From an uncultured Lachnospiraceae bacterium (lineage in GTDB: Bacteria; Bacillota; Clostridia; Lachnospirales; Lachnospiraceae): a stretch of 64,000 nucleotides of DNA. The stretch spans positions 1 to 64,000 of the forward strand of contig CANREB010000008.1 in the NCBI GenBank assembly GCA_947629525.1. Direction: 5' to 3'. Positions 20,962 to 62,768 of the stretch are shown one piece after another. The stretch's first letter is position 1. Each line of letters opens with the position of its first letter. A model generated the notes under the pieces. It was not told where the DNA came from, searched no databases, and saw nothing but the letters and a program-made list of their open reading frames with translations. A program made the translations under genes and the position numbers.

Positions 20962-23115
20962 ATGGCAGACAACGGAAAGACAAAATTTGATTACGAAATA
21001 GAAGAATTTGAACAGGCTTTTGATGATAAGCGGGATAAAAGGATAGCCATATACGGTACAGGGCGAATGACCGCTACGCTGCTTGGCAGGATAAAGGGTT
21101 TCAACATAATAGGTCTGCTGGACAGGGAAGAAGCTCTTATAGGCAGCAGCCAATATGGTGTTGAAATAATAAGCAGGGAAGCTGCTGAAAGAAATGCTGA
21201 CCTGATAATCATAAACACGGCAGAAAATTACTGGAGGACAATATATAACCGTATCAAAGATTGGAATATTCCAATATATTTCAGAAATGGCAGGTTAGCG
21301 GCACAGAGTGGGAAAGAAGACAGGGCGGCAGATGAGTATTTCAACAAATCATATGATGAATTAAGGCAGAAAGCTGAGAAGTATGACATTATATCATTTG
21401 ATATTTTTGATACATTAATAATGAGAAAAATATGTCTTCCGTCAGATATATTTGGATTAGTTGATAAAAAAATAAAAGGATTTACCGACACAGACATTAA
21501 TTTTGCGGAGATACGCAGAAAAGCCGCAGCATTATCAGACAATCCAAGCATAGATGAAATATATTACAAAATACGGGAGATGACAGGCTGGGATGTTTCA
21601 TTGACGGAAAAAGTAAAGCAATGTGAATTGGAAACGGATTTTAAGCTTATTTCCGCAAGAAATGTTATGACAAAGCTATGCAGGGAACTGATGCAGGAAA
21701 AAGAAGTGTGGCTTGTAAGCGATATGTATTATACGGCGGATTATATAAAAAAGATACTTCATTATAATGGCTTGGATATAGACAGCAGCAGGATTATTGT
21801 GTCATGTGACTGCAAAAGAAGCAAAGAAGACGGAAGCCTGTGGGAATTTTACAGGCAGAACGTGGTTAAAGGGAGAAGTGCCCTGCATATAGGCGACAAT
21901 GAAAAAAGTGACTGTATGCGTCCAAAAGAATACGGCATAGACACATATTTTATCAGAAGTGCAGGCGAAATGATGGCAAATTCATCTTTGAGGGAGATCC
22001 TGCCGCAGGTCAACAGCTTATATGCTTCGCTGGCTGCAGGGATGACTGCTGTAAAAATCTTTAATAATCCCTTCGTAAATACTGGGGGGGGGGTAAAATT
22101 TAATGATGAGAAAGAAGCCGGGTATTGTCTTTTGGGAAGCTTATGCTGTTCATTTATGCACTGGCTGATGCAAAACTCTGTTTCGGACGGGGTTGAGGAG
22201 ATAGTATTTTTTGCCCGTGAAGGATATCTGCTTATTGAACAATACAGATATATGTGTTCTCTTTTGAAAGGGTGTAAATTTCCCAAAGCCGTATATATGG
22301 AAATTTCCAGAAGGGCAGTAATAAATGCCGCCATTGAAGTAAAAGATGATATATATGAAGCGGCGATGTTTCCGTATACAGGCAATCTGTCAGGATTTCT
22401 GCATGACAGGTTCAGGGTGGAAAGTGAAGATGAAGAAACACTTACAACAGCGGTTATTGACATACAAAAAGACAGGGACACACTGGAAAAAGCACTAGGT
22501 AAGTATGCAGACGAGATATACCGTAAGGCATTGGAAGAAAGGGCAGGGTATCTGAAATACATATCCAAGCTTGGACTGATGCCGAAAATAGGAGTAGTTG
22601 ATTCACTGCTGTATGGCAACACACAATATTATCTGGGAAAGATAATGAAACAAAAAATGAACGGATATTATTTCTGTGCATGCCTTGACAATGATAATAA
22701 ATGCTGCCGCCGTCAAAACATGAAAGGATGCTTCCAAAACAAAGACGACACGACAGGGAAGCAGTCTAAAGTATGGAAAAATTCAAATTTCATAGAAGCT
22801 TTTTTTACAAGTCCGAATGGGATGCTGATTTTTATGAATCCTGACGCAAATGCGGAATATGCCGCGCCGATGTCAAACCAGAAGGCTTTTGGCGTAAGGC
22901 TGGAAATGCAGGAAGGCATATTTGAGTTTATGCGTGAAATAGTGGATATACAGGAAAAAATAGCTTTTGATGACTTATGCAATGACACAAGCTTTGCGGA
23001 AGATTTGTTTGGCTGTTTTATGGACGGCGGATTTGAGCCGTCGGATAAAATGAAAAAAAGTTTTTATTATGATAATGGCATACTGAATAATAAAGAAGTG
23101 CCTATATGGGAGTGA
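20962..23115 (+). CDS. Rossmann-HAD hydrolase multidomain glycan protein, phase-variable
   Basis: 717 aa. An N-terminal Rossmann-like module (IAIYGTGRMTATLLG, then IIGLLDRE) spans about residues 18-120. A HAD domain begins with FDIFDTLIMR near 146, with VWLVSDMYYT and HIGDNEKSDC as later motifs. A C-terminal domain of unknown fold follows from about 385 (EEIVFFAREGYLL). Ten consecutive G (22084-22093) encode Gly-Gly-Gly at the linker between them. The count here keeps the frame open; a loss or gain of one G stops it within a few codons. AGGGTGG precedes the ATG at 20962. Substrate unknown; similar proteins occur in glycan loci. Confidence 0.75.
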   Translation: MADNGKTKFDYEIEEFEQAFDDKRDKRIAIYGTGRMTATLLGRIKGFNIIGLLDREEALIGSSQYGVEIISREAAERNADLIIINTAENYWRTIYNRIKDWNIPIYFRNGRLAAQSGKEDRAADEYFNKSYDELRQKAEKYDIISFDIFDTLIMRKICLPSDIFGLVDKKIKGFTDTDINFAEIRRKAAALSDNPSIDEIYYKIREMTGWDVSLTEKVKQCELETDFKLISARNVMTKLCRELMQEKEVWLVSDMYYTADYIKKILHYNGLDIDSSRIIVSCDCKRSKEDGSLWEFYRQNVVKGRSALHIGDNEKSDCMRPKEYGIDTYFIRSAGEMMANSSLREILPQVNSLYASLAAGMTAVKIFNNPFVNTGGGVKFNDEKEAGYCLLGSLCCSFMHWLMQNSVSDGVEEIVFFAREGYLLIEQYRYMCSLLKGCKFPKAVYMEISRRAVINAAIEVKDDIYEAAMFPYTGNLSGFLHDRFRVESEDEETLTTAVIDIQKDRDTLEKALGKYADEIYRKALEERAGYLKYISKLGLMPKIGVVDSLLYGNTQYYLGKIMKQKMNGYYFCACLDNDNKCCRRQNMKGCFQNKDDTTGKQSKVWKNSNFIEAFFTSPNGMLIFMNPDANAEYAAPMSNQKAFGVRLEMQEGIFEFMREIVDIQEKIAFDDLCNDTSFAEDLFGCFMDGGFEPSDKMKKSFYYDNGILNNKEVPIWE
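22084..22093 (+). repeat. G10 homopolymer tract (in-frame)
   Basis: Ten G followed by TAAAA within the HAD protein gene. G9 gives TAA immediately; G11 gives a stop three codons later (GGT AAA ATT TAA). It is an in-frame candidate switch. Confidence 0.9.
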
Positions 23116-23117
23116 AG

Positions 23118-24269
23118 ATGCAGACTATACAGGAATTAGAAGAATTATTTGAAAAGTATTGGGAAAATGAAAAAGGATATATAGTAATGCCGTACACGAT
23201 CCGTGCAAGGGCTTATCTTGCAGTAATAGCGGATGATATACATATAGAAGCCGTACTGGATAATAATGATGCACTGGACAATACATACTTTGGAGGCATT
23301 CAGATAAAAGCTGCTTCAAAGTTTCTGGAAGAAAATATTTCACAAAATGGCGTAAAAAAGAAGATCCTAGTATCGGCTCATTACAGTGAGATAGCGGAAC
23401 AGCTAAAAAATGCCGGGTATGTGGAAAACATAGACTTTATTGATATGCATATGTTTGTTTCCATGTACTACTGGCGCAAAAAGGGTGAAATACATCTTTT
23501 GGATGTTCATACGGCAGTAACGACATACTGTTCTTTAAACTGCAAAAACTGCAATATGTTTATTAACCATTATGCGGACAGCAGAAGAAGAAATATCGGT
23601 ATGGAAGAGTTTAGGGAGAATTTTAATGCTCTATTTAGGAATGTAAATTACTGCTATAAGGTATCAATCCTGGGCGGTGAGCCGCTGCTCAATAGGGAGC
23701 TGCCGCAGATGCTGGACTGGCTGCATAAAGAATACGGGAGCCGTATAGGTCAGATCGTTATTGTTACTAATGGTACAGTGCCGGTTCAGGAAAGGCTTAT
23801 GAAAGTGCTGAAGGAAACAGGCGCTAAAATAAGCATCAGCGACTATACGGCGAGCGTCCCGTATGATGAAAAATTAAAAAGATTTGAAGATAAATTAGAG
23901 AACAGCGGCATTGAATTTGAAACCAATAAAGAGATGAAATGGAAGAATTTTTTCTTTCCCAAAGAGAATCAGAAAGTGGGCTTTGAGTCTGCAAGGGAGC
24001 ATATGCTGCGTTGCAATCCTGTGTTTAGAGGGTTAAATGATAAGAAATTTTATTACTGCCATATAGTATGGAGCGCGGTACAGGCAGGACTGCTGAAAGA
24101 AGATAAGGCTGATTTTGTAGATTTGGAGGAGATAAAAAGCCCTGCGGAAAGGAAGAAGCTGTTATCGCATGATTTGGGATTTGTTGAAAATGGAAGTATA
24201 TCACTCTGCAGGTATTGCGGTGGATGCGGGAGTGATAATGAAAGTTTAGTAGTGGCTGGGGTACAATGA
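23118..24269 (+). CDS. Radical SAM protein with N-terminal Rossmann-like module (first copy)
   Basis: 383 aa. The first 110 residues resemble the Rossmann modules of neighbouring proteins in a degenerate form (IEAVLDNNDALDN). CSLNCKNC (near 137) is the CX3CX2C that binds the 4Fe-4S cluster, and ILGGEPLLN is the SAM-binding GGEP motif. The C terminus has further Cys (CRYCGGCG) that may hold an auxiliary cluster. The reaction is unknown; placement suggests modification of a sugar or polyol. The ATG at 23118 has GGGAG 5 nt upstream and starts 2 nt after the preceding stop. Confidence 0.8.
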   Translation: MQTIQELEELFEKYWENEKGYIVMPYTIRARAYLAVIADDIHIEAVLDNNDALDNTYFGGIQIKAASKFLEENISQNGVKKKILVSAHYSEIAEQLKNAGYVENIDFIDMHMFVSMYYWRKKGEIHLLDVHTAVTTYCSLNCKNCNMFINHYADSRRRNIGMEEFRENFNALFRNVNYCYKVSILGGEPLLNRELPQMLDWLHKEYGSRIGQIVIVTNGTVPVQERLMKVLKETGAKISISDYTASVPYDEKLKRFEDKLENSGIEFETNKEMKWKNFFFPKENQKVGFESAREHMLRCNPVFRGLNDKKFYYCHIVWSAVQAGLLKEDKADFVDLEEIKSPAERKKLLSHDLGFVENGSISLCRYCGGCGSDNESLVVAGVQ

Positions 24270-24311
24270 CTGGGTTTTATATTTATCAATATATGATGTG
24301 AGGAAAACATT

Positions 24312-25265
24312 ATGAAAAAAGTATCTATTATTATCCCTATATATAACACAGAAAAATATTTAGAAAGATGTTTATCCAGTGTTTGTAATCAGACATATGA
24401 GAACTTGGAAATCATTTGTATTGACGATGGTTCAACAGATCAATCGGGAGAAATTGCAGAAGAATTCAGACAAAAAGATTCAAGGATAATTTTAAAGCAT
24501 CAGGAGAATAGTGGTGAAAGTGCAGCAAGAAATAGTGGTCTGGTTCTTTCAAGTGGTGATTATATAGGATTTATTGATTGCGATGATTGGATTGAGGCGG
24601 GTATGTATGAAAAACTTGTAGAAGAGCTTGAAAAAAGTAATGCGGATATTGCTATAAGTGGTTGGTACAAAGATACTTTATCGGAAAGCATTAAAATAAA
24701 AAATGAAAAAGAAGTAGAAGAAAGTATTTTTACAGGAAAGAAATTATTAAGATATTTGTATGAAAGGGATTCATACAGAGAGTTTGCTTATATATGGGAT
24801 AAGCTCTACAAAAGGGAATTGCTTTATGATGAAAACGGAAAAATGATTTTGTTTGATATGTCGTTAATGCTTGGTGCGGATGCGGTGTGGCTTGGAAGAG
24901 TGGCACTGAATGTAGATAAAGCAGTATATGTAAATAAAACGTTTTATCATTATATACAAAGAGAGGACTCAGGTTGCCATTCAAGGGATATAAGTAGGCG
25001 TCTTGATTGGTTAAAAGCGTATATTGACTTGATAGATATATTTTATGAAAAAGAAATAAGTATAGAGATAATAGATTTGTTAAAGCGTTTTTTGGTATAT
25101 CACAGCGCAATTGTAGCGGATATGGCTTATAATCAAAAAAATAAAGATGCATTAGCGTACTGCAAGAAGATTATTACAGATTATAAAGATGAATATGAAA
25201 AATTAAATATGGATAAGCCTGAAAGAATCAAATGGCTAAGTAAAATTTTGGATTATAGGTTATAG
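24312..25265 (+). CDS. Family 2 glycosyltransferase
   Basis: 317 aa, GT-A fold. The N terminus VSIIIPIYNTEKYLERCL, the IDDGSTD nucleotide-binding segment and FIDCDDWI with the DxD metal site are classic GT2 motifs. It is cytoplasmic and probably adds one sugar to a lipid-linked or soluble acceptor. Composition becomes clearly more A/T-rich from here on, with many ATA and AGA codons. Donor and acceptor cannot be named. Confidence 0.88.
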   Translation: MKKVSIIIPIYNTEKYLERCLSSVCNQTYENLEIICIDDGSTDQSGEIAEEFRQKDSRIILKHQENSGESAARNSGLVLSSGDYIGFIDCDDWIEAGMYEKLVEELEKSNADIAISGWYKDTLSESIKIKNEKEVEESIFTGKKLLRYLYERDSYREFAYIWDKLYKRELLYDENGKMILFDMSLMLGADAVWLGRVALNVDKAVYVNKTFYHYIQREDSGCHSRDISRRLDWLKAYIDLIDIFYEKEISIEIIDLLKRFLVYHSAIVADMAYNQKNKDALAYCKKIITDYKDEYEKLNMDKPERIKWLSKILDYRL

Positions 25266-25280
25266 GAAGAGGACAAAAAC

Positions 25281-26432
25281 ATGAAATGGAAAAAACGAGG
25301 ACACGAATATGATGTCATATATCGTAATATGGAACAAAAAGAAATGTTTTATTTATTTGGTGCAGGTGATTATGGAAGACAGTTTCATAAAATATTTAAT
25401 AATGAAATAAAAATATGTGGATATATAGATAACAATATAAAAAAACAAGGAACAACAATAGATGGGAAGGAATGTTTCCCCTTAAAAGCAATCAGCATTA
25501 ATAAAAACATTGGAATTATTGTTACTATATCTCAATTTGAACGTTCAGTACCGATAGAACAGTTGAAAGCCGTAGGATATGAATACGGAGAGGATTTTTT
25601 TATAATTGAAGAATTTTTGTCTGTATATTATCTATATAAATATAACAAGATTTATTTTTCAAGTATTTCTTTTCTTCCAAGTACAGCTTGCAATTTGAAT
25701 TGCCGAAATTGCCTAAATTTTAATCCGTTTGCTAAACAATTTTACATTAGAAGGCTGGAAGACTTGAAAAAAGATGTTGACCTATTTTTCTCATGCGTTG
25801 ACCGCATTATGTTATTTCATGTGAGCGGCGGAGAGCCGATGGTGTATAAACATACAGCAGACCTGATAGAGTATATAGACAGGAATTATGGTGACAGGAT
25901 AGATACACTTCGCACTGTGACGAATGGGACGATTGTGCCTAAGGATGAAGTGTTGGAAAAGCTTTCCAAGTGTAATGTTGAGGTTACCGTGGATGATTAT
26001 AGGGATGCAGTACCTAGATTTAACGACAGGTTTGATGAGCTTGTTAGAAAACTGGAAGAATATCACATTAAATATTATATAAATAAGGCTGACAGTTGGA
26101 TAGACTTAGCACCTGATAAAACCGATTATTCGGGTTGGACGGATGAACAGTTAGAGAAGCATAGGTCTGAGTGCAGCCAGTCATGGCAGGAATTGCGTGA
26201 TGGAAAGCTGTACAGCTGCAATTATGCCGCCTATGCTACAGTAGCAGGGATTGCAGGAGAGCAGGATGTAGAAGAAGCATATGATTTGCGAGAGTATGCA
26301 TTAGATAAGGCAAAAGAGCTGATAGAGTTTAGACTTGGATATACAACAAAGGGGTACACGAATTTCTGTAAGAAATGCAGAGGGTTTACTGTGGAAAATG
26401 CAGGAAGAGAAAAACCTGCTGTGCAGATATAA
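25281..26432 (+). CDS. Radical SAM protein with N-terminal Rossmann module (second copy)
   Basis: 383 aa, paralogous in layout to the gene at 23118. The N-terminal module reads FYLFGAGDYGRQFHK and ICGYIDNN. The radical SAM cluster is CNLNCRNC (near 136) and the SAM motif is VSGGEPMVY. C-terminal Cys (FCKKCRG) may bind a second cluster. GGAAGAGG lies upstream. The first half is A/T-rich while the second half, from about 25800, is visibly richer in G/C, suggesting a recombinant gene. The reaction is unknown. Confidence 0.82.
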   Translation: MKWKKRGHEYDVIYRNMEQKEMFYLFGAGDYGRQFHKIFNNEIKICGYIDNNIKKQGTTIDGKECFPLKAISINKNIGIIVTISQFERSVPIEQLKAVGYEYGEDFFIIEEFLSVYYLYKYNKIYFSSISFLPSTACNLNCRNCLNFNPFAKQFYIRRLEDLKKDVDLFFSCVDRIMLFHVSGGEPMVYKHTADLIEYIDRNYGDRIDTLRTVTNGTIVPKDEVLEKLSKCNVEVTVDDYRDAVPRFNDRFDELVRKLEEYHIKYYINKADSWIDLAPDKTDYSGWTDEQLEKHRSECSQSWQELRDGKLYSCNYAAYATVAGIAGEQDVEEAYDLREYALDKAKELIEFRLGYTTKGYTNFCKKCRGFTVENAGREKPAVQI

Positions 26433-26494
26433 AGTTTGAAGGTGAACATAGTATGTAAATTGTAATTTTAGGTGCGTGGAAAGCGAGAAATTTT

Positions 26495-27574
26495 ATGAAA
26501 ATATCAATTATTACAGTTTCATTCAACAGTGCAAAAACAATAGAACGGACAATAAAAAGTGTCTTATCGCAAAATTATGAAGAAAAAGAATATATAATAA
26601 TTGACGGAGCTTCTGTAGATAAAACTGTAGATATAATTAAAAAGTATGAACAGGAAATAGATTATTGGATAAGTGAGCCAGATGGAGGCATATTTGATGC
26701 CATGAATAAAGGCGTTAGTAAATGTACAGGTGAAATTGTTGCATTTATGAATAGTGATGATTGTTATACTCATAATAATGTTTTAGCGAATGTTGCCAAG
26801 TTATATGAAAATAGTAAGTTTGATATTCTCTGCGGAAGTATAGCATTATTGTATAATGATGAAATAGTATCAATTAGAAGAGCAGGAAAAGAGTCAAAGA
26901 GAATATGGCTTGAGAGTATATATGGGCATCAAGCAATGTTTTGCAAAAAGAAGCTGTTTGCGAAATATAAAGTCTTTTCTACAGCATATCAATTAGGTGG
27001 AGATTACGAGTGGATGTTACGGATGCATTGTTTGGGAGTTAAGGTTAACGTAGTAGATGAAACATATGCAAATTATTCATTGACGGGATTGAGTGGAACA
27101 CATTCGCTGCAGCTTGCTGAAGAATTCAAAGAAATAGCCATGAGTCATATTACTTCACTAAACAATGAGTATTCAGTAGAGGAAGTAGAAAAATATCATG
27201 ATTGGAAAATATCATTTTATGAAAAAGTTGATGAATTAAAGAAAATGATAATGCATAATGATAAAAGATTGAAGCAATTATTTGGTAGTAATGAATATTA
27301 TATTTGGGGAACAGGAAAGATGGGGATATTCAGCTATGAACTGCTAAAGAATTTAGAAATAAAGATTTGTGGTTTTATTGATAATAATGTTATTTCAGAT
27401 AGAATTTTGGGCTACCCTGTTGTTTGTCCACAAAAGGCTGATTATAGTAAAAGAATATTTATATCAGTACTTAATGTAGAGGATGCAGAGAAAATTATGC
27501 AACAGATAGAAAAAGTAAATATTGATGGTTGTATAGTGCTTAGAAATTTGATCGATAATATTAATGAATTGTAA
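26495..27574 (+). CDS. Family 2 glycosyltransferase with C-terminal Rossmann module
   Basis: 359 aa. Residues 1 to about 235 are GT2 of the WcaA/colanic-acid-like type: ISIITVSFNSAKTIERT, IIDGASVDKT, EPDGGIFDAMNKG and FMNSDDCY. Residues about 265-355 form the recurring Rossmann-like module (YYIWGTGKMG, then ICGFIDNN). Fusion at the C terminus contrasts with the N-terminal position in neighbours. The module may bind a nucleotide sugar or provide an interaction surface (inference). Confidence 0.85.
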   Translation: MKISIITVSFNSAKTIERTIKSVLSQNYEEKEYIIIDGASVDKTVDIIKKYEQEIDYWISEPDGGIFDAMNKGVSKCTGEIVAFMNSDDCYTHNNVLANVAKLYENSKFDILCGSIALLYNDEIVSIRRAGKESKRIWLESIYGHQAMFCKKKLFAKYKVFSTAYQLGGDYEWMLRMHCLGVKVNVVDETYANYSLTGLSGTHSLQLAEEFKEIAMSHITSLNNEYSVEEVEKYHDWKISFYEKVDELKKMIMHNDKRLKQLFGSNEYYIWGTGKMGIFSYELLKNLEIKICGFIDNNVISDRILGYPVVCPQKADYSKRIFISVLNVEDAEKIMQQIEKVNIDGCIVLRNLIDNINEL

Positions 27575-27620
27575 TATTTTATTTGTATAAATAATATTTG
27601 TAGAAGTGAATGGTGAATAT

Positions 27621-28670
27621 ATGTATAAGATATTAATTTGGGGAACGGGTGCTGTTGCAAAGAAATTTATTGAAAATGGTATAAACGCAAAGTTGATTGG
27701 TTTTATTGAAACACATAAAACCATAGATGAATATAAGGGTGTTTCAGTGTATAGTATAGACGAACTACCAAAAGGATATGACTTTATTGTTGTCGCTAAT
27801 ATGCATTCTAATGAGATATATCAGACATGTATAAAAATAGGCATAGATATGGAAAAAATTATATTTCTTTGTGGTGTGAAAAGTCAGATTGGATGTAATG
27901 ATTTAGAAATAATTTATAATATATTTGGAGAGAAAAACTACACAAACTATTGTGCTGAATTTAGTTTGATTGAGGATTCTTTTTTCCAACAAGATAAAAA
28001 ACGATACAATATTTTAAATACAAGAGAGGAATTTCGCATTCAAGAAAAATATGAATTACCAATTATTGGTGATAAATTTAATGTTGCTGGAACTGTAGGG
28101 AATTATTTTTGGCAGGATTTATGGGCAGCAAAATTAATTTATAAAAGCGGAATAAAAAAACACTTTGATATTGGTTCAAGGATAGATGGATTTATAGCTC
28201 ATCTGCTTGCTATGGATGTTGATGTTACGTTAATTGACATTAGGGAGTTGCCAACGGAAATTGAACATTTACATACTTTAGTAGATGATGCTACGAATTT
28301 GATTCAAGTTGAAAATGAAAGTATAGAAAGTATGTCTGCCCTTTGCTCGTTGGAGCATTTCGGTTTAGGACGCTATGGCGATTCGATAGATCCGGAAGCA
28401 TGCTTTAAGTGCTTTAAGAAAATACAGGAGAAAATCTGCAAAGGCGGAAATTTGTATCTATCAGTTCCAGTTGGAAAAGAGAGGCTTGAATTTAATGCGC
28501 ATAGAGTATTTTATGCAGAAACAATCATAAATCAATTTGATAAAATGAAACTGAAAGAGTTTTCATGCACGGCGGATGGAAAGATTGAATATAATGTTGA
28601 CATTCATAAGTATGACAAAGACAAGCATAATGGAAATTATCGTTATGGGTTATTTCATTTTGCAAAGTGA
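27621..28670 (+). CDS. Rossmann module fused to a DUF268/methyltransferase-like domain
   Basis: 349 aa. Residues 1 to about 95 form the shared module (ILIWGTGAVAKKF, LIGFIETHK). The remainder resembles DUF268 proteins, which have a SAM-methyltransferase-like core: HFDIGSRIDGFIAHLL, TLIDIREL and a typical CSLEHFGLGRYGD segment. A role as a sugar O- or N-methyltransferase is possible but unproven. The ATG at 27621 follows GGTG by 5 nt; the GTG at 27606 is less likely. The stop overlaps the region of the next gene's alternative starts. Confidence 0.72.
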   Translation: MYKILIWGTGAVAKKFIENGINAKLIGFIETHKTIDEYKGVSVYSIDELPKGYDFIVVANMHSNEIYQTCIKIGIDMEKIIFLCGVKSQIGCNDLEIIYNIFGEKNYTNYCAEFSLIEDSFFQQDKKRYNILNTREEFRIQEKYELPIIGDKFNVAGTVGNYFWQDLWAAKLIYKSGIKKHFDIGSRIDGFIAHLLAMDVDVTLIDIRELPTEIEHLHTLVDDATNLIQVENESIESMSALCSLEHFGLGRYGDSIDPEACFKCFKKIQEKICKGGNLYLSVPVGKERLEFNAHRVFYAETIINQFDKMKLKEFSCTADGKIEYNVDIHKYDKDKHNGNYRYGLFHFAK

Positions 28671-28708
28671 TAGTTATTATGATAATAGATATGCACGGGA
28701 GAATAGGA

Positions 28709-29758
28709 ATGGAATCTAATGTAATATTGAGTATATGTATATCAACATATAATCGAGCCACTAAAATTGAAAAATTAGTTAGAGAAATATTGAAATGCAA
28801 ATCTAAAAAAATATCAGTAGTTGTAACAGATGATAAATCTACAGATGAAACTCTTGAAAAGCTTGGGAATATCAAAGATGATAGGGTATATTTAATGAAG
28901 AATAAATTAAATTTAGGAGCAAGAGGAAACTGGTATGAAACTATAAACAATGGAAACGGGAAATATATTTTGCATTTGCTGGATAGAGATTGGTTAGATT
29001 ACAGATACCTAGATAATGTGGTGTCTATATTAGAAAGTGAAGATATAGGATTTGGATATATAGGAAATTTATATACACGGTATTGGCGTATTAATTCTCG
29101 AAATGATGCTGTGGAATATTATACAAACAAAACAGAAACAACAAATATGTTTGCTTTCAGTTGGATCCATCCATCAGGATTTTTGATTAAAAAAGATGTA
29201 TGGAATTACATAAAAGACAGAAATATTTTTAGCGATGCGAAATACGGAATATACCCTCATTCGTATATATATTCACTTTTGGCTGGAAAAGAGAAAGGCG
29301 TAGTAATTAAGTACAAAATGATAACTTCTTCCGTAAAATCTAATTTTATGAATAACCGTTCAAGATTTTATCAGCATGAGAATAATGATTTGTTGTATTG
29401 GTGGTTGCCAAAATCATGGAAAAATGAAATATGTATGTCAACGATGTATGCGTGTGAAATGCAATTATGGGATAAAAGATTAACACAACAAGTGATTATT
29501 AACAGATTTAAGGATGCATTGTATCTTGCAACGATTTCTTATCGCAATGAAGCTATGGAAACAGAACATTGTATGCACTATAACATAAATAAAGAATATA
29601 TTGCACCTGGAAGTTTGATAAAAATAAATATAAAATTTGTTGCTGATTATATAAAATTTGTAGTTATTAATCATTATAATATAGCAGATATAGGGTTTGT
29701 GTATAAAATTATAAAAGCTGGAATTATGAATTTAAAAGAAATATTGGAAATGGGGTAG
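28709..29758 (+). CDS. Family 2 glycosyltransferase
   Basis: 349 aa. ILSICISTYNRATKIEKL and VTDDKSTDET mark the GT-A nucleotide-binding half. The usual DxD reads LLDRDWLDY, so the second acidic residue is kept. The C-terminal half is A/T-rich and shows no domain. The ATG at 28709 has GGGAGA a few nt upstream; in-frame codons back to 28667 overlap the previous gene. The following gene starts 4 nt after its stop. Confidence 0.8.
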   Translation: MESNVILSICISTYNRATKIEKLVREILKCKSKKISVVVTDDKSTDETLEKLGNIKDDRVYLMKNKLNLGARGNWYETINNGNGKYILHLLDRDWLDYRYLDNVVSILESEDIGFGYIGNLYTRYWRINSRNDAVEYYTNKTETTNMFAFSWIHPSGFLIKKDVWNYIKDRNIFSDAKYGIYPHSYIYSLLAGKEKGVVIKYKMITSSVKSNFMNNRSRFYQHENNDLLYWWLPKSWKNEICMSTMYACEMQLWDKRLTQQVIINRFKDALYLATISYRNEAMETEHCMHYNINKEYIAPGSLIKINIKFVADYIKFVVINHYNIADIGFVYKIIKAGIMNLKEILEMG

Positions 29759-29762
29759 CAAA

Positions 29763-30263: not shown

Positions 30264-30313
30264 GAATTTAAATATACTATTAAATTGATTAAATTTATTT
30301 AGAAGGGTTGGGT

Positions 30314-32334: not shown

Positions 32335-32348
32335 GAGGATATTGTTTT

Positions 32349-33587: not shown

Positions 33588-33611
33588 TAAGCTGGTGGTT
33601 GGAGAATAAAA

Positions 33612-51623: not shown

Positions 51624-51636
51624 TTTTGACATTGTG

Positions 51637-51678: not shown

Positions 51679-51708
51679 GATGTCGTCGGATATAAGGACA
51701 TAGGTAAA

Positions 51709-54082: not shown

Positions 54083-54125
54083 GATTTCCTAAATGTTTAG
54101 GAAAAACGCAAGGGAGGCGTTTTTC

Positions 54126-55502
54126 TTGAGGTTTTTAAGACATGGGGAGTGGAATAATGGAGGCAGTGTGAAAGAGGATTTTCTTTTAAGGCTTATGCGG
54201 GCGCTTATTCCGTTTGGAAATATCATGATATTCTGCTACGTGTGGGCGCTGTATTACAATGAAAAGACATTTGAAGGCTTTTGGTATCAGGGGATGCTTA
54301 TATGCGCCGCGCTTTATATACTGATATATTACGCGTTTGGCAAGCTTTACCGCGCTTTCAAGATAAACATCGCAGGGACAGGCGAGCTGATGCTTTCACA
54401 GTTTCTCGCAATAGGAATGTCGGATTTTGTCATGTATATGGTGTGTTATCTGACACATATGCGTTTTGCAAACCCGCTGCCGGGACTTATCGCGGCGGCG
54501 ATACAGCTTATAGTAACCTGTTTTCTGATAAAAGTAAACAAGGCAAGCATCGCGAAATATATACCGCCGCAGTCGGCAATTTTTATATATGGCGCTAAAA
54601 TGCAGCTTAGAGCGGAGCATATCGAAACTTCCGCGGAGCAGCTCATAAATAAACTCAAAAAGAAACATTCCGACCTGTTTGAGATACAGGAGGTCTGCAG
54701 CGATACTCAGGAAAGTTCGGAACTTGTCGGAAAAATCGCTGATTATGAGGCTGTGATACTCTGCCATGTGTCACAGAAGCTGCGTGCAAGGCTGCTTGCC
54801 GTATGCGCGGAAAAAGGCAAAAGCGTGTATGTCACGCCAAAGCTCGAAGATATTATGCTGATGAATTATGAGTACAACAGCATGACCGATACGCCGATGC
54901 TTATGCTGCCTGCAAGACGTGACGGTTACAAGGGAAAAAGGTTTCTCGACATAGGAATGTCGGTACTTATGCTGCTCATATTTTCACCGTTTATGCTTCT
55001 TGCGGCATTGTGCATAAAACTGGAGGACGGCGGTCCCATACTTTACAGGCAGCGGCGCGTCACGCAAAACGGCAGAGAATTTGATATGCTTAAATTCCGC
55101 AGTATGATTGTGGACGCGGAAAAGCAAGGTTATATGCCCGCTGTACAAAAAGACAGCCGCATCACGAAAACAGGGAAGTTTATCAGGGCAACGCGTTTTG
55201 ACGAAACGCCGCAGCTGTTCAACATATTAAAGGGCGATATGTCTATCGTAGGACCGCGCCCTGAGCGCATAGAGCATGTGCAAAAATACACGGAAAACCT
55301 TCCCGAATTTTCCTATCGGCTGCGTGTGCGCGGTGGGCTGACAGGCTACGCGCAGATATACGGCAAATACAACACCAGCGCCGAGGACAAGCTCAAGATG
55401 GATTTGATGTATATTGAAAAGCAGTCGCTTCTGCTGGATCTGCAGCTTATTCTGCTGACGGTGAAGGTGATATTTATGAGGGAGAGTACGGAAGGGTTTT
55501 GA
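54126..55502 (+). CDS. Undecaprenyl-phosphate sugar phosphotransferase (priming glycosyltransferase)
   Basis: 458 aa. Membrane segments in the N-terminal half precede a nucleotide-binding-like region, then the conserved bacterial sugar transferase domain: KRFLDIGMSVLMLLIFSPFM, YRQRRVTQNGREFDMLKFRSM, RFDETPQLFNILKGDMSIVGPRPE and GLTGYAQIYGKYNT. The enzyme starts repeat-unit synthesis by moving sugar-1-phosphate from a UDP donor to undecaprenyl phosphate. TTG at 54126 has GGGAGG 8 nt upstream; the ATG at 54093 has no visible site but stays possible. Confidence 0.9.
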   Translation: MRFLRHGEWNNGGSVKEDFLLRLMRALIPFGNIMIFCYVWALYYNEKTFEGFWYQGMLICAALYILIYYAFGKLYRAFKINIAGTGELMLSQFLAIGMSDFVMYMVCYLTHMRFANPLPGLIAAAIQLIVTCFLIKVNKASIAKYIPPQSAIFIYGAKMQLRAEHIETSAEQLINKLKKKHSDLFEIQEVCSDTQESSELVGKIADYEAVILCHVSQKLRARLLAVCAEKGKSVYVTPKLEDIMLMNYEYNSMTDTPMLMLPARRDGYKGKRFLDIGMSVLMLLIFSPFMLLAALCIKLEDGGPILYRQRRVTQNGREFDMLKFRSMIVDAEKQGYMPAVQKDSRITKTGKFIRATRFDETPQLFNILKGDMSIVGPRPERIEHVQKYTENLPEFSYRLRVRGGLTGYAQIYGKYNTSAEDKLKMDLMYIEKQSLLLDLQLILLTVKVIFMRESTEGF

Positions 55503-55510
55503 ACGGCTGT

Positions 55511-56599
55511 ATGAAAAAAATACTGATAATGGTAAATCGGGATTTTGTCCTTTATAACTTTCGGATAGAGCTGGTGCGGGAGCTTTTACAAAGCGGCGCT
55601 AAGGTATACATATGTCTTCCGTATGGCGGGCGCGTCGATGAGATGGTTGATATGGGTTGTACCTTTATAGATGTCGATATCGACAAGCGCGGCAAAAATC
55701 CGTTTAAGGATGCGGTGTTGATAAGCAGATACATAGGAATTTTTTCAAAAATCAAGCCTGATATGGCGCTGCTTTATACCACAAAGGTATGTATATATGG
55801 AGGAATAATATCGGGCGCGATGCGTATTCCATATATAGTAAATATTTCAGGGCTGGGGACGGCAGTGGAAAATAAAAGCCTGATACAGCCGTTTGTGCTT
55901 TGGCTGTACAGATTAGCAATCAAAAAGGCTAAGTGCGTATTTTTTCAAAATATCCAAAATCAAGTTTTTTTCGAGAAACACAGGCTTTATAACGGCAGAC
56001 AGCGGCTGACGGCAGGTTCGGGAGTAAATCTCGACAGGTGGCGGCTTATGGAATATCCAAGCGACAGCGGCGGAGTGGAGTTTTTGTTTATGGCGCGTGT
56101 CATAAAGGAAAAGGGCATAGAAGAATATTTGGCGGCGGCAGAGCAGATAAAAAAGGAATTTCCGAGCGCAGTGTTTCATGTGCTTGGACCATGTGACGGC
56201 GGTTATGGAGAAGCTTTGGCGGACTATGAGGCGCAGGGCATAATCAAATATCACGGCATGGTAAAGGATACGCGTTTATATATTGCAAAAGCGCACTGTA
56301 CTATACATCCGTCATATTATCCCGAAGGAATGTCAAACGTCTGCCTTGAAAGTGCGGCGTGCGGTCGTCCTGTCATCACGACAGACAGAAGTGGCTGCCG
56401 CGAGACGGTAGATGATAATATCACGGGATATATCTTTGAGGCGAAGAATACAGATGCGCTCATATGCAGAATATGGCAGTTTTTAAGTTTGACGAATGAC
56501 GAGCGCAGGCAAATGGGGCTTTGCGCCCGCGCAAAGATGGAACGTGGGTTTGACAGACGTGAGGTGACGGCTGCTTATTTGGAGGAGATAAATGGATAA
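55511..56599 (+). CDS. Family 4 glycosyltransferase
   Basis: 362 aa. ILIMVNRDFVLYNFRIELVREL is the typical N terminus of capsule GT4 enzymes related to N-acetylgalactosaminyl or galactosyl transferases. The donor domain includes FLFMARVIKEKGIEEYL and HPSYYPEGMSNVCLESAACGRPVI, with the two Glu of the EX7E motif. It likely adds the second sugar to the primed lipid. The ATG at 55511 is assumed; TTG at 55499 is an alternative. It overlaps the next gene by 8 nt. Confidence 0.87.
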   Translation: MKKILIMVNRDFVLYNFRIELVRELLQSGAKVYICLPYGGRVDEMVDMGCTFIDVDIDKRGKNPFKDAVLISRYIGIFSKIKPDMALLYTTKVCIYGGIISGAMRIPYIVNISGLGTAVENKSLIQPFVLWLYRLAIKKAKCVFFQNIQNQVFFEKHRLYNGRQRLTAGSGVNLDRWRLMEYPSDSGGVEFLFMARVIKEKGIEEYLAAAEQIKKEFPSAVFHVLGPCDGGYGEALADYEAQGIIKYHGMVKDTRLYIAKAHCTIHPSYYPEGMSNVCLESAACGRPVITTDRSGCRETVDDNITGYIFEAKNTDALICRIWQFLSLTNDERRQMGLCARAKMERGFDRREVTAAYLEEING

Positions 56600-57497
56600 G
56601 TATTTAAAATCAAAAGTTAAACTTCAAATATTAAAGTTGTTTAACTGGATTCCTGACAAACAAATGATATGCCTGCAATATTGGATGAAAACAGGGCGCA
56701 GGCTTAATCTGAAAAATCCTAAACGCTATACGGAAAAGTTGCAGTGGTACAAGCTTTACCACCGTGATCCTTTAATGGCGCAGTGTGCGGATAAATATGA
56801 AGTCCGCGCCTACATAGAGAAGAAAGGTTTGGGAAATATTTTAAATGAATGTTACGGGGTGTATCAATCTGAAGACGATATTGACTTTGATGTTTTGCCG
56901 GAACAGTTTGTGATAAAAGCTACGAACGGCGCGGGCGGCGTGGGTATTGAGATATGCAAGGACAAGTCACAGCTTGACATTCCAAAGCTTAAAAAGGAGC
57001 TTCATAGATGGCTGAAGCCTCAAAAAAACGGCGGGGGACGTGAATGGGTATATTACCAGTATAAGCCAAAGCTGATGATTGAAAAATACCTTGCGCCGGG
57101 AAAAGGGGAAAACAGCCTTGTTGACTATAAATTTTTCTGCTTTAATGGAGAGCCGTACTGTCTTTATGTAATGAATGAATGTTTTACAGAGGGCGGTGTG
57201 CGTCAGAACATCTATGATTTGGATTTCAATGTTATGCCATATATGCGTGAAAAAATCAAACCGATACATACCAAAATCAATAAACCTGACAATTTTGATG
57301 AAATGATAGAGATAGCCCGAAAATTGTCCGAGGATTTTCCGTATGTCAGGGTGGATTTGTACGATATAGACGGAAGGGTACTTTTTGGCGAGCTAACCTT
57401 CTTCCCTGAAAGCGGATATTATGACTTTGAACCTGATGAGTTTGATTTTGTGCTAGGGGAGAAGTTTAAGACTGATTTGGCAAAAAGGAGAATATAA
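56592..57497 (+). CDS. TupA-like ATP-grasp protein
   Basis: 301 aa. The N terminus (NLKNPKRYTEKLQWYKLYHRDPL) and the ATP-grasp signatures (FVIKATNGAGGVGIEI, VDYKFFCFNGEPY, YVRVDLYDIDGRVLFGELTFFPESGY) match the TupA-like family found in capsule and teichuronopeptide clusters. Such enzymes may form amide links between glycan uronic acids and amino acids. It overlaps the glycosyltransferase gene upstream. The amino acid or substrate is unknown. Confidence 0.85.
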   Translation: MDKYLKSKVKLQILKLFNWIPDKQMICLQYWMKTGRRLNLKNPKRYTEKLQWYKLYHRDPLMAQCADKYEVRAYIEKKGLGNILNECYGVYQSEDDIDFDVLPEQFVIKATNGAGGVGIEICKDKSQLDIPKLKKELHRWLKPQKNGGGREWVYYQYKPKLMIEKYLAPGKGENSLVDYKFFCFNGEPYCLYVMNECFTEGGVRQNIYDLDFNVMPYMREKIKPIHTKINKPDNFDEMIEIARKLSEDFPYVRVDLYDIDGRVLFGELTFFPESGYYDFEPDEFDFVLGEKFKTDLAKRRI

Positions 57498-57503
57498 AAA
57501 TAT

Positions 57504-58289
57504 ATGCTAAAGGACAAAAACTTAATTGAGCTGATATTTGCCAAAGTATTATGTGAGAATGGCGATATTGTTATACCGAAAACTGTCTGTGGGTGTTCGG
57601 CAGGATATTTTTTTGATAGTGACAGACTTTCAATATCATATGAAAAGATGATAGAAAAATTACAAAATCTAAATGGAAAGTACATCTTAAAAGCTACAGT
57701 AGGGACAAGCTCAGGGCGGGACGTGATTGTCTTGGATTTGCCAAATGAAAAGCTTGGAACAATACTTTCAGGATTTGGAAATGATTATATAATTCAAGAA
57801 AAAATAGAGCAGCACGCAAGCTGCGCCATACTTCACCCACAGTCCGTAAACACGATAAGAGTAATGAGTTATCGGACAGAGGATCAGATAAAAACTACGT
57901 CGTGCGTAATGCGCATAGGTATAAGCGGAAAGTATGTGGACAATGGACACGCAGGAGGATTGTATATAAAAGTGATGCAGGACGGAAAACTGTCAAAATT
58001 TGCCTGCCGTGGAAATCAGGGAATGCTGAAACAGCATCCGGATAGCGCTATAGTATTTGAAAACCATCAGCTTGCGGAACTACCAAAAATAGTTAATGCG
58101 GCTAAGAAGCTTCACGCCTGCCTGCCCAATATAGGCATAGTAAACTGGGATTTTGCTATGAATAATGAAAGCAAACCGGTGCTGATTGAGGCTAATATGC
58201 TGTGCGGAAGCATGTGGTTATTCCAAAATACAGGGGGGGGGGTATTTGGACATGACACAGAGTATATGATTAATAGGATAAGAAAATGA
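57504..58289 (+). CDS. Sugar-transfer-associated ATP-grasp protein, phase-variable C terminus
   Basis: 261 aa. ILKATVGTSSGRDVIVLD and NDYIIQEKIEQHASCAILHP form the ATP-grasp subdomain, and VNTIRVMSYRTED, NGHAGGLYIKV and IGIVNWDFAMNNESKPVLIEAN hold the metal ligands. It is somewhat shorter at the N terminus than usual relatives (from memory). A G10 tract at 58233-58242 encodes Gly-Gly-Gly 15 residues before the end. G9 or G11 would replace the last residues with short alternative tails rather than destroy the core. It starts 6 nt after the TupA-like stop. Confidence 0.78.
   Translation: MLKDKNLIELIFAKVLCENGDIVIPKTVCGCSAGYFFDSDRLSISYEKMIEKLQNLNGKYILKATVGTSSGRDVIVLDLPNEKLGTILSGFGNDYIIQEKIEQHASCAILHPQSVNTIRVMSYRTEDQIKTTSCVMRIGISGKYVDNGHAGGLYIKVMQDGKLSKFACRGNQGMLKQHPDSAIVFENHQLAELPKIVNAAKKLHACLPNIGIVNWDFAMNNESKPVLIEANMLCGSMWLFQNTGGGVFGHDTEYMINRIRK
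58233..58242 (+). repeat. G10 homopolymer tract near the ATP-grasp C terminus
   Basis: The context AATACA-G10-TATT is shared with the tract at 60747. G10 reads through to the natural-looking end (GVFGHDTEYMINRI). G9 would end after MTQSI, and G11 after IWT. Confidence 0.9.
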
Positions 58290-58411
58290 TGATGAATTTT
58301 ACTTATGATAAAGAAGCTGCTAAAAAGAACAGCAGAATAGTGTGTTTAGATGTGGCTGTGGAAAAGAACCGCAGTACTTGTACATTGATAATTTCATACT
58401 TAAATCGGTGA
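58286..58411 (+). pseudogene. Possible 5' gene fragment interrupted by the Rpn cassette
   Basis: A 41-codon frame starting ATGATGATG overlaps the ATP-grasp stop and runs into the left end of the nuclease cassette, where it ends by chance at 58411. The first 25 residues (NSRIVCLDVAVEKN) loosely recall the start of the island's Rossmann modules. It may be the remnant of a gene split by cassette insertion; no matching 3' half is seen on the other side. Weakly supported. Confidence 0.3.
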
Positions 58412-58433
58412 TAAGAAAAAATTCATATAGATA

Positions 58434-58462
58434 TTGACAAACATATGTTTGCATAGTAAAAT
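58434..58462 (+). promoter_or_regulatory. Promoter with embedded palindromic operator
   Basis: TTGACA (58434-58439) and TAAAAT (58457-58462) are 17 nt apart. The spacer contains a perfect 14-bp palindrome CAAACATATGTTTG at 58438-58451 that overlaps the -35 box, so a bound dimer would block RNA polymerase. Confidence 0.65.
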
Positions 58463-58494
58463 AAATATAAACATACATTCGAGAGGAAGGCTAT

Positions 58495-59487
58495 ATGGAT
58501 AAAATCAAAGGAAGCATGGAAGCGCTAAATTCATTTCAACTGACGGAGGACATGCGGGGGCTGGATGCCCAAAGCAAGCTGCTGTTTCACAGCAGGGAAG
58601 TCCTTGCAGTCATATTGCAAGGCACTATTCGGGAGTACAAGGGTTATTCAAAGAAAGAAATCATGGAGTTCATAGAAGTTGATTCAATCAGTGAGGACAC
58701 CGAGGTTTCACCGAACAGGACAAACACGACAATAAAGGGTGACAATACAGAGTATATGCTGCTCAATGAGAAGGCAACTTTGTTTGATGTTGATTTTAAG
58801 GTACTAAACCCTGCTCTTACGAAAGCTAATATTACAGTGAAGCTGCACATTGATGTAGAGCCGCAGAAAAATTACTCGCTGCCATATCCTATCGAGAAAA
58901 GGGGCATATACTATCTCGCAAGGAAACTCTCATCACAGCTTTCACTCATTACGGGGCAGACCGACTACGGTCAGCTTGAAAAATGCTATAGTATATGGAT
59001 ATGCAGGGATAATATCCCAAAAAACGAGCAGTACAGCATGTCAGTCTATGAGATAGTCAATACTCATAACACAAGTATGGAAGAAATACCAAAAGAAAAT
59101 TATGATTTATTGACTTTGGTGGTTATCAAACTTGGAAATAGGGTGTATAATGGGGAAAAGGGGGAAGCAAATTACGAATTGCTGCATTTCCTAAATACGG
59201 TAATGTACCCTCATAAAGCAGACTTTATTAAAACTGTATCGGAATATATTGACTTCTCAAAAACAGAGGAGCTGTGGAAGGAGGCGTCGGGAGTGACAGG
59301 ACTGGGACAGTGCGTGTATAATGACGGTGTTGAGGAAGGAATAGAGATGGGAATGCGCTATTTTGTGCTTGATGATATTGATGAACATGTGCCAAGAGAG
59401 CGCAGCATAATCAAGCTGCAGAAATATTTCAAGCTGACGGAAGAAGAAGCGGAGCAGTATTACGATATGTTTGCCAGTGAGGCATAG
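58495..59487 (+). CDS. Rpn-like PD-(D/E)XK nuclease family 'transposase'
   Basis: 330 aa. The family is widespread and multicopy in Lachnospiraceae and related to recombination-promoting Rpn nucleases. The region FDVDFKVLNP followed by VKLHIDVEPQK matches the Asp...Glu-x-Gln/Lys catalytic layout. KCYSIWICRDN and a C-terminal acidic tail (EEEAEQYYDMFA) are also typical. The ATG at 58495 follows GAGGAAGG by 4 nt. The gene has its own promoter and terminator within inverted ends. The copy at 20076 lacks its first 89 codons. True transposition is not established for this family. Confidence 0.82.
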   Translation: MDKIKGSMEALNSFQLTEDMRGLDAQSKLLFHSREVLAVILQGTIREYKGYSKKEIMEFIEVDSISEDTEVSPNRTNTTIKGDNTEYMLLNEKATLFDVDFKVLNPALTKANITVKLHIDVEPQKNYSLPYPIEKRGIYYLARKLSSQLSLITGQTDYGQLEKCYSIWICRDNIPKNEQYSMSVYEIVNTHNTSMEEIPKENYDLLTLVVIKLGNRVYNGEKGEANYELLHFLNTVMYPHKADFIKTVSEYIDFSKTEELWKEASGVTGLGQCVYNDGVEEGIEMGMRYFVLDDIDEHVPRERSIIKLQKYFKLTEEEAEQYYDMFASEA

Positions 59488-59545
59488 GACGGCAAGACAC
59501 TGGCAGATCCGCGGCAGATGACAACTGAATATCGGAAAATTAAAG

Positions 59546-59597
59546 AATCCCGTTATAAGTATGAAATGGTTAATTTTATGTTATAACGGGATTTTTT
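59546..59597 (+). terminator. Terminator at the right end of the Rpn cassette
   Basis: AATCCCGTTATAA (59546-59558) pairs perfectly with TTATAACGGGATT (59581-59593), followed by T residues. Confidence 0.8.
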
Positions 59598-59649
59598 AAT
59601 TGATGATTTGATGATAATAGAAAACCGTACAATCAGGCAGGAGGTTTTT

Positions 59650-60786
59650 ATGAAAACAGCATTAATCATTCCATATTTTGGTAAGTTTCCAAATTATTTT
59701 TATCTGCATTTAATATCAATAAGGCATAATCCTGATTTTACATGGTTTTTCTTTACAGATGATTATACGGAATACGACTATCCGCCCAATGCAAAGGTTT
59801 TTTATATGAGCTTTGATGAAATGCGGAGCTTAGTGCAGAGTAAATTCGATTTTCCCATAGCATTGGAAAGACCGTATAAGCTGTGTGATTTCAAACCGGC
59901 GTACGGGCATATTTTCGCTGAATATCTGAAGGAATATGACTATTGGGGACACTGTGACTTGGACGTCATATGGGGCGATTTGAATAAATATTTAAAAGAT
60001 AAATTAGCAGAGGATTATGATTTGCTGTACCGCGAAGGAGCGCTGCGGTTATATAAAAACGACGATAATATAAATCAACTGTATAAAAAAGAAGGTTCGA
60101 TTTTTAATTATAAGAAAGTGTTTTCTCATAAGGAAAATTATAGTTTTGATGAAGAACTGGGCATTCAGCGCATTGCGGAAAGAAACCGAATTAAATTATA
60201 TGTAAATGATAATGATGTGGCGGATATTGACGCATTTGTCGGACCGCTGTACATACGCAGAGTCTGCAAAAAAAGGTGGAAAGATGAAGCAGGCATATTC
60301 AGAAGCATAAAAAATTATAAAAATCAGATATTTCGTTGGGAAAATGGCAAGGTTTACAGAATTTATATTGATAATGGTTTAGTTGGTAAAGATGAGTTTA
60401 TGTATCTGCATTTGCTCAAGCGCAAAATGGATATAGGAATGGTCAGCAAAAATGCGGAGAGCTTTACTGTAATACCTAATAAATTTATAGCAGAGAATGT
60501 TAAGGAAATACCTGAAATAAATGAGATAGAACAGCTGTCCAATAACTCAAAAATGCCATCACAGGAGAAATTTGCGCATAAATTATGCAGAAAGTTGAGA
60601 AGGTATAAGGGAATGAGTAAAAATAGCAGAAGAATTACAATGAAACAAAGATTATATTCTGAGATATTTAATTGTTTTGGAGCTTTTTGGAATGCTAATA
60701 TAAAAGGAAAAGTTGAGAGCAGCAGTAGAAATATACGAAAAATACAGGGGGGGGGGTATTGCAACACCGTTGACGATACAAAATAA
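59650..60786 (+). CDS. DUF6625-like glycosyltransferase with switchable C-terminal tail
   Basis: 378 aa. TALIIPYFGKFPNYFYLHLISI, WFFFTDDYTEYDYP and YDYWGHCDLDVIWGDL, with DxD, mark a GT-A-like family common in capsule loci. AGGAGG lies 5 nt before the ATG at 59650. A G10 tract (60747-60756) sits 12 codons before the stop. With ten G the protein ends YCNTVDDTK. With nine or twelve G the frame continues for 20 more codons and ends in an ATGA overlap with the flippase start. Sugar specificity is unknown. Confidence 0.78.
   Translation: MKTALIIPYFGKFPNYFYLHLISIRHNPDFTWFFFTDDYTEYDYPPNAKVFYMSFDEMRSLVQSKFDFPIALERPYKLCDFKPAYGHIFAEYLKEYDYWGHCDLDVIWGDLNKYLKDKLAEDYDLLYREGALRLYKNDDNINQLYKKEGSIFNYKKVFSHKENYSFDEELGIQRIAERNRIKLYVNDNDVADIDAFVGPLYIRRVCKKRWKDEAGIFRSIKNYKNQIFRWENGKVYRIYIDNGLVGKDEFMYLHLLKRKMDIGMVSKNAESFTVIPNKFIAENVKEIPEINEIEQLSNNSKMPSQEKFAHKLCRKLRRYKGMSKNSRRITMKQRLYSEIFNCFGAFWNANIKGKVESSSRNIRKIQGGGYCNTVDDTK
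60747..60756 (+). repeat. G10 homopolymer tract controlling the DUF6625 tail
   Basis: AATACA-G10-TATT. In the assembled state the frame closes at 60786, leaving a 39-nt gap to the flippase. G9 or G12 opens the frame to 60829; G11 closes it after six codons. Confidence 0.9.
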
Positions 60787-60825
60787 AATGTTAAGGAAAT
60801 ATGACTCTCAAAGTTTGGTGGCGGA

Positions 60826-62232
60826 ATGAAAAATCGGTTTTTAAAAAATACGTCAATAGTAGTTGTGGTAAATGGCATATGTACAGCCATTAATGTGCTG
60901 ATAAATTTTATTATACCGATTGTTTTTGGCGAAAGCCAGTATGCCTATTATCAGTTGGAAAATCTGTATTGTGGATATTTATGGATAATTTCGTTAGGCT
61001 GGCATGAGGGAGTATACCTTTATTACGGCGGACAGACACAAGAGGAAATCAACAAGGATGAAATTGCGACGCAGTTTTGGCTGTTTACGGGATATATGAT
61101 TATTGCAACAGCAGCCGCGTGCGCATTTAGCAAGATATTTATGCGTGATATAGATAAACAAATCGTTTGGGCATATTCTGCGGCAAGTATCTTTATAGAA
61201 GCTCTAAGGTATGTTTATCTGTATTATTTGATATGCATAAACAGCATAAAAAAATACTCTGCATATTTATTTTTGGATAGAGTTTTACATATTTTGCTTT
61301 TGACAATATTATCTGTTGTCGGGATTAAAGACTACAGATTTATGCTTGGGGCGGACATATTATCCAAACTGGTAATCTTAGCGATGATTTTAAAAATAAA
61401 CAGCGCGTTGTTTTTTAGGCATCTGCTTCCGTTGAAGGAAAGCCTTATACGTACAAAGGAGCTGATATTTTCAGGCATTAATATAATATTCGCTGCCTTT
61501 GTAAGCAGAATGATTAGAGGCACAGTGCGTTTTGCCATAGAAATGTATTGGGGAATACTTGTGTTTGGAAAAGTGTCGTTGGCTTTGAGCATTTCCAATA
61601 TGTTTACGCAGTTTATTCAATCAGTAAGCACGGTTCTGTTTCCGGCACTGAGAAGATTTGATTATGGCAAAAGAGAGCGTGTGTATGCGTATCTAAGTGA
61701 TGTCTTAGATATATTGATGGCGATGATGTTTTTGCTTTATTTGCCTGCAGTGCGAATATTGGGACGCATTCTTCCGCAATATACGGACAGCCTTAAATAT
61801 ATGGCGGTTTTAATGCCATTGAGCCTGTACGATGCAAGAAACGTTGTCTTAAACAGCACATATTTAAAAGCTTTACATAAGGAAAGAGCCATATTGGCAT
61901 CAAGCGTTGTGGCTACAGGCTTTAGCTTTCTGTTTGCGTTTGTGTCGGTATATATATGTCATAATTTGGATATGGCGGTATTTTCTATGATAGCACTTGC
62001 TGTCATTCGCAATATAGTATGTGAATACCGACTGTCAAAATGCTTAAAAATACAAATGATAAAAAATCTTATGAGCGAAATGGTACTTACTATGATTTTT
62101 ATAATAGCGAACTGGTATATCGGCGGCATATACGGTACACTTATGTATTTGCTGATATTGATAATATACTTATGGTTAAAACGGGAAAGAGTAAAAAAAA
62201 TATTTAAATATATGAAAGACAGTGTCTTATAA
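60826..62232 (+). CDS. Oligosaccharide-lipid flippase (Wzx-like)
   Basis: 468 aa, 12 to 14 hydrophobic segments of the MOP/polysaccharide exporter type. It begins NTSIVVVVNGICTAINVLINFIIPI-like, a typical start, and has FGKVSLALSISNMFTQFI in the middle. It moves undecaprenyl-linked repeat units across the membrane. It lies downstream of the switchable glycosyltransferase, and the ATGA overlap in the alternate frame implies optional translational coupling. A weak GGTGG site is also present. Confidence 0.85.
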   Translation: MKNRFLKNTSIVVVVNGICTAINVLINFIIPIVFGESQYAYYQLENLYCGYLWIISLGWHEGVYLYYGGQTQEEINKDEIATQFWLFTGYMIIATAAACAFSKIFMRDIDKQIVWAYSAASIFIEALRYVYLYYLICINSIKKYSAYLFLDRVLHILLLTILSVVGIKDYRFMLGADILSKLVILAMILKINSALFFRHLLPLKESLIRTKELIFSGINIIFAAFVSRMIRGTVRFAIEMYWGILVFGKVSLALSISNMFTQFIQSVSTVLFPALRRFDYGKRERVYAYLSDVLDILMAMMFLLYLPAVRILGRILPQYTDSLKYMAVLMPLSLYDARNVVLNSTYLKALHKERAILASSVVATGFSFLFAFVSVYICHNLDMAVFSMIALAVIRNIVCEYRLSKCLKIQMIKNLMSEMVLTMIFIIANWYIGGIYGTLMYLLILIIYLWLKRERVKKIFKYMKDSVL

Positions 62233-62258
62233 TAATTGGCTTTTTATAACAGCAGTTT

Positions 62259-62768
62259 ATGGGTATTAGCAGGAATACAGAGCATTATATTATTGACAAT
62301 ATGGGGCAGGAAGTGCTTGTGAAAAATTGGGCAATGACATCCGGGGGGGGGGTATCTTTGGATAAATTTTTGAGGATGGGAGATTTTGATGAGGCTCTTT
62401 TTGTCGGTCATATTGATATAGAATATGGAATCCGTATTCATGAGAAGGGATATGAGATACATCAAATAAAAAAAGCAATGATGTACCAACGGCTTGGAAA
62501 TGCGGAGGAGAAAAGACTGTTATGGAAAAAGGTGCATCCTTATCATGGAGCGTTATATAGATATTATTATCAAACGAGAAATCAATATTATATACTGCAT
62601 AAATACGGAATAAAATATAAAAAGTTTACTAATGTGTATCTTTGGCGGAGTCTGATAAAAATTGTGTTATATGAGGACAAAAAACTGCAGCGCATAAAAA
62701 TGCTTATATTAGGATATGTTGATGGATTCCGCGGAATAATGGGCAAATGCCAGTATCATTATGAATAA
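62259..62768 (+). pseudogene. C-terminal fragment of a family 2 (rhamnosyltransferase-like) glycosyltransferase
   Basis: 169 codons. WAMTSGGGVSLDKFLRMGDFDEALFVGHIDIEYGIRIHEKGYEIHQ corresponds to the distal half of WbbL-type GT2 enzymes (split here only by quoting; key motifs are GxFDE, D-x-E and KGY). The N-terminal nucleotide-binding half, about 130 residues, is absent, and the flippase gene ends 27 nt before. A G10 tract encodes the Gly-Gly-Gly in the conserved S-G segment. It is either a relic or a fragment reactivated by recombination. Confidence 0.65.
62343..62352 (+). repeat. G10 homopolymer tract in the GT2 fragment
   Basis: TCC-G10-TATCT. G10 keeps the frame open into the conserved GT2 C-terminal half. 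This tract lies near the place where the N-terminal half is missing. Confidence 0.9.

Follow-up and report, generated by a model that had tools for sequence, protein, structure and literature searches.

Does a stretch of DNA with four runs of exactly ten guanines, each inside a different gene for putative glycan functions, carry switches that turn on the gain and loss of single bases? The window, which is the whole 64,000-nucleotide stretch analysed here, contains such runs at positions 22084, 58233, 60747 and 62343. Their exact length and the TA directly after each of them were confirmed. It also held that no other G run of the window exceeds six, the remaining runs of at least six G being three G6. 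No C run of six or more was found in a scan of the whole 64,000-nt stretch. Windows of eight G were observed 12 times, and 100 dinucleotide-preserving shuffles gave a mean of 0.73 and a maximum of 6. A chance origin of the G runs was ruled out by this comparison. The tracts and the genes around them are as follows.

20950..23115, plus strand: 721-aa protein carrying the 22084 tract, with a HAD-like motif, SFDIFDT, recognised by eye
22084..22093, plus strand: G10 tract, flanks ATACT before and TAAA after, in frame, codons read as T-GGG-V
57504..58289, plus strand: sugar-transfer associated ATP-grasp protein (PF14397, E=3.9e-38), carrying the 58233 tract
58233..58242, plus strand: G10 tract, flanks AATACA and TATT, in frame, 18 codons before the stop
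59608..60786, plus strand: DUF6625 protein, putative glycosyltransferase (PF20330, E=4.7e-92), carrying the 60747 tract
60747..60756, plus strand: G10 tract, flanks AATACA and TATT, near the C-terminus, 13 codons from the stop
60826..62232, plus strand: 468-aa ORF downstream of the 60747 tract, polytopic-membrane-like, flippase-like by eye
62259..62768, plus strand: 169-aa ORF carrying the 62343 tract, resembling by eye the C-terminal half of a GT2 glycosyltransferase
62343..62352, plus strand: G10 tract, flanks ACATCC and TATC, in frame, without the upstream TAC flank

The gene labels of the initial annotation were borne out by Pfam for the ATP-grasp and DUF6625 proteins. The HAD and GT2 labels were judged by eye. 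The former is used because a DxFDT motif was seen, and a Pfam search of the 721-aa protein gave no match. The 169-aa ORF had no significant Pfam match and lacks the N-terminal half of a GT2 enzyme, so that it is probably a remnant. The Pfam search of the 468-aa ORF gave no match either. Two related PD-(D/E)XK transposase-family genes (PDDEXK_2, Rpn-like; 20130-20813 and 58495-59487) directly adjoin the tract genes at 20950 and 57504, and the first copy looks N-terminally truncated. An association of tracts with PDDEXK_2 genes was considered and dropped; the sampled tract loci contained a single additional clear relative (L164).

The consequence of a length change differs among the four sites. 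One G more or fewer at 22084 would truncate the 721-aa protein at about residue 380-390. At 58233 the other frames give alternative tails of 7 or 12 residues, and the three frames at 60747 end in tails of 13, 27 or 8 residues, the stop of the 27-residue tail overlapping the start codon of the next gene. These are tracts at the 3' end of an ORF with alternative tails in the other frames, as in the C-terminal phase variation of Helicobacter canadensis (PMC2823697), where a frame change swaps short C-terminal tails. From their sequence, the 58233 and 60747 tracts fit such C-terminal switching. In H. canadensis the variation of tract length within a population was seen in reads (PMC2823697), whereas the lengths here are known from assemblies and compared between species. 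The C-terminal tract is absent from relatives of the DUF6625 protein, and a relative in the genome of another species (G017; 30-35% identical) has a G10 run near its N-terminus instead. Among the four tracts of the window, 22084 is the only clean on/off position, which limits the proposal that all four act as a set of contingency loci.

The other part of that proposal gained support from the whole genome of this uncultured gut Lachnospiraceae bacterium (3.08 Mb in 110 contigs), where the set extends well beyond the window. The genome contains 30 runs of at least eight G, 24 of which have at least nine, with a modal length of 10 (six G8, eight G9, twelve G10, two G11 and two G12). Seven of the long runs share a segment of about 13 kb on contig 1. 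The 24 runs are mostly in surface-modification genes or promoters; thus, a scatter of such runs over unrelated genes was not found. Runs of G9 or more were present in 32 of 38 genomes sampled from the same Lachnospiraceae genus, although very unevenly distributed, and 115 of 130 sampled tracts are carried on whichever strand has the longer open frame. Pfam searches over 109 tract-bearing ORFs or ORF halves returned methyltransferases (up to 15), acyltransferase-3 (6), sulfatase-fold (6), radical SAM (4), hexapeptide transferase (4), AMP-binding (3), MBOAT (2) and YfhO (2) families. FkbM, GT61, Caps_synth and GtrII-like enzymes are among the tract genes of this genome itself. Judged from family names, with tract genes alone counted, the functions appear to be mostly surface decoration.

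The census resembles the poly-G phasome of Campylobacter, which also has many tracts per genome, modal lengths of 9 and 10, and a preference for ORFs and the coding strand (PMC6321876). G9 is the most common length in Campylobacter, followed by G10 (PMC6321876). Surface-modification genes are affected in both cases, including SAM methyltransferases, ATP-grasp and radical SAM proteins, and ON and OFF states are both present (PMC6321876).

Among 92 tracts that are open on both sides, 55 are in frame and 37 are frame-split, a class defined by ORF lengths that may include chance ORFs. The in-frame share exceeds the random one third (p=3e-7), yet the tract genes are far from always intact. A Pfam domain spans the break in three split genes of this genome. 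The clearest split case, an AMP-binding gene on contig 15, is broken into 146 and 373 aa at a G10 tract. Its copy in G017, a different species, has G9 and is intact. Across 2,261 bp the two copies share 99.03% identity, with the tract as their single indel. In this pair, G10 or G9 makes the difference between a broken and an intact gene. An insertion of a short cassette was also considered for this gene, because its relatives lack about 9-12 residues where the tract lies, but this loop varies too much for the difference to serve as proof. The split gene (L014, contig 15, about 30.5-38 kb) adjoins a 2,436-aa NRPS-like ORF with several AMP-binding domains, so that a natural-product pathway may be phase variable.

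These data bear on the reading of the G runs as artefacts of sequencing or assembly, such as poly-G tails or homopolymer miscalls. Runs at contig ends (bases 1-12 of contig 5 in this genome, contig 24 of G022 and contig 30 of G017) would agree with it, as would a run of about 30-45 G in one further genome (G047, contig 49, about 17917-17963), which is itself probably a sequencing artefact. However, genomes of different species, assembled separately, have internal tracts at matching positions of a gene and with matching flanks, the share of tracts in frame is above chance, and the flank is missing from short-run controls. We consider this reading highly improbable as a whole and reject it for internal tracts; contig-end runs may be artefacts.

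Tracts also lie in promoters. The pattern of TTGACA, a G-tract spacer and TATAAT had 15 matches in six genomes and none when reversed. Three exact matches are in this genome, none of them within the window. In 18 such promoters inspected singly, the spacers are about 16-21 bp, and many precede genes for secreted LysM-domain proteins. The spacers of orthologous promoters differ in length by one base (18/19 and 19/20); the 19/20 difference is an A that precedes the tract, not a G. The design is similar to that of the Neisseria meningitidis porA promoter, in which poly-G lies between -35 and -10 and its length sets the spacing (PMC3639595). Unlike porA, several species here share one promoter design, predicted from sequence, with TAC before the tract and the -10 element directly after it. 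Many promoter tracts placed to drive secreted LysM proteins also distinguish this genus from Campylobacter. In the genome G052, six promoters of the form TTGACA-TAC-G tract-TATAAT were seen (L184, L185, L189, L190, L191 and L196), four of which precede paralogous secreted LysM proteins. A promoter-like poly-G spacer, TTGACAAAAATACA-G10-TATAAT, was also observed in another phylum, in Streptobacillus notomytis (L078).

Coding and promoter tracts together allow a further alternative to be weighed, namely that the runs do not switch in any biologically relevant way and serve as stable glycine codons with a function, or as promoter spacers of fixed length. In its favour, the frame is kept at many ORF tracts, orthologous tracts often have one length in different species, and a loop may tolerate three glycines. 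On the other hand, 37 of the 92 tracts are frame-split, two gene copies that are 99% identical are in opposite states at G10 and G9, non-GGG glycine codons would avoid the risk, and spacing differs between orthologous promoters. We regard stable tracts as quite improbable.

The preferred reading, to which we give a probability of about 85%, is that the G10 runs of the window belong to a genome- and genus-wide set of poly-G contingency loci that switch by slippage. The pattern fits slipped-strand phase variation of the Campylobacter and Neisseria kind. We infer slipped-strand mispairing because of the tract type, the lengths, the frame states and the single-indel pair, and switching within a clone and an effect on the cell surface are suggested in the same conditional way. 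Replication slippage would add or remove single G's. In ORFs, the resulting frame shift would turn surface-decoration enzymes on and off or swap a C-terminal tail. In the promoter tracts elsewhere in the genome, a change of the -35/-10 spacing would lead to graded transcription of secreted LysM and other exported proteins.

MutL (PF01119) is encoded by this genome, and a search of the 18 good-quality genomes of the genus detected it in every one. Therefore, mismatch-repair loss through MutL is not the explanation, and loss of MutL as the cause of the tracts was ruled out. Campylobacter is generally described as lacking MutSL; the host here, in contrast, is a Lachnospiraceae genus with MutL. 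MutL lowers mononucleotide slippage in Neisseria (PMC3639595). Its presence, together with the constant length of several orthologous tracts, counts against the contingency-locus reading.

The tracts share more than their length. Many of them follow a rule of TAC, 0-2 bases, G9 or more, and TA(T), which forms a near inverted repeat around the tract. The flank AATACA...TATT had been singled out as shared by two tracts of the window. It is indeed present at 58233 and 60747, but it is not peculiar to them and belongs to a genus-wide pattern. In this genome, G010 and G022, which were sampled irrespective of flank, there are 48 runs of G9 or more. TA follows 79% of them, TAC occurs upstream of 58%, within five bases, and 54% have both. 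Both flanks accompany 13 of 3,271 (0.4%) short control runs of G3-G6. The motif occurs in all three codon phases and in promoters; therefore, it is a feature of the DNA level, and a protein-level cause was ruled out. Across the genus, G9TAT was counted 154 times versus 6 reversed, and in other genera of the family about 45 times versus 6 in some 127 genomes. The fuller motif gave 14 versus 0 reversed in this genome and 5 versus 5 in 248 other Bacillota genomes, so long G runs of the phylum do not in general have this flank, and this generic explanation was set aside. The TAC/TA flank is described here as a feature of the Lachnospiraceae tracts. Two ATACA-G10-TATATA tracts were also observed in Hungatella hathewayi WAL-18680 (L095), each just past the signal-peptide-like start of similar proteins, and one of them is frame-split ahead of a 1,645-aa ORF. 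Enterocloster hominis BX10, like H. hathewayi a cultured relative, also has matches to the motif.

At the 22084 site, the 721-aa protein has orthologues in two genomes of sister species (G052 and G020) that are 95-96% identical. The ten bases of the tract read GGGAGAGGGG and GGAGGAGGGA in them, interrupted and aligned base for base, in frame and with the TAC/TA flank kept. Since the sister orthologues are interrupted at the same ten bases, point substitution either gave rise to the 22084 tract or locked the others. The insertion of a cassette is unsupported at this site, where the sister genes carry the same ten bases. A common origin of the tracts, or recombination between them, had also been suggested. 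This was not upheld, as the similarity ends at the short motif and 22084 aligns with the interrupted 10-bp versions of the sister species.

Candidate causes of the flank are a slippage-raising effect for which it was selected, or a recognised site. More broadly, the flank could mark a dedicated process at the DNA level, one that acts through a recognised site or copies a short cassette and that gives rise to tracts, spreads them or makes them unstable in addition to slippage. The contrast with short runs, the occurrence in every codon phase and in promoters, and the orientation bias in this genome as compared with other Bacillota all favour such a process. Nevertheless, no candidate enzyme was identified, the sister versions of 22084 have the flank and the length but not a pure G run, evidence against a cassette inserted at this site, and a slippage-raising flank under selection would look alike. 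We consider a dedicated process unlikely. It is unlikely, too, that this lineage-specific flank, which disregards reading frame and gene context, is a recognised element through which a protein or process makes, maintains or destabilises the G tracts, with switching sites being generated and not left to passive slippage.

Poly-G phase variation as a kind is already known. No report of it in Lachnospiraceae was found in the open-access literature, most subscription journals being outside the search, and within the same limits neither its scale in this lineage nor the LysM promoter class nor the flank rule was found. The phase variation of gut Firmicutes met in the searched literature is DNA inversion. 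A set of poly-G switches would account for seemingly frame-broken genes in these Lachnospiraceae genomes, and the flank rule is a testable handle on how contingency tracts arise and are kept. A poly-G set of Campylobacter scale in MutL-bearing Lachnospiraceae would allow these common commensals to vary their surface combinatorially, as a defence against phages and IgA.
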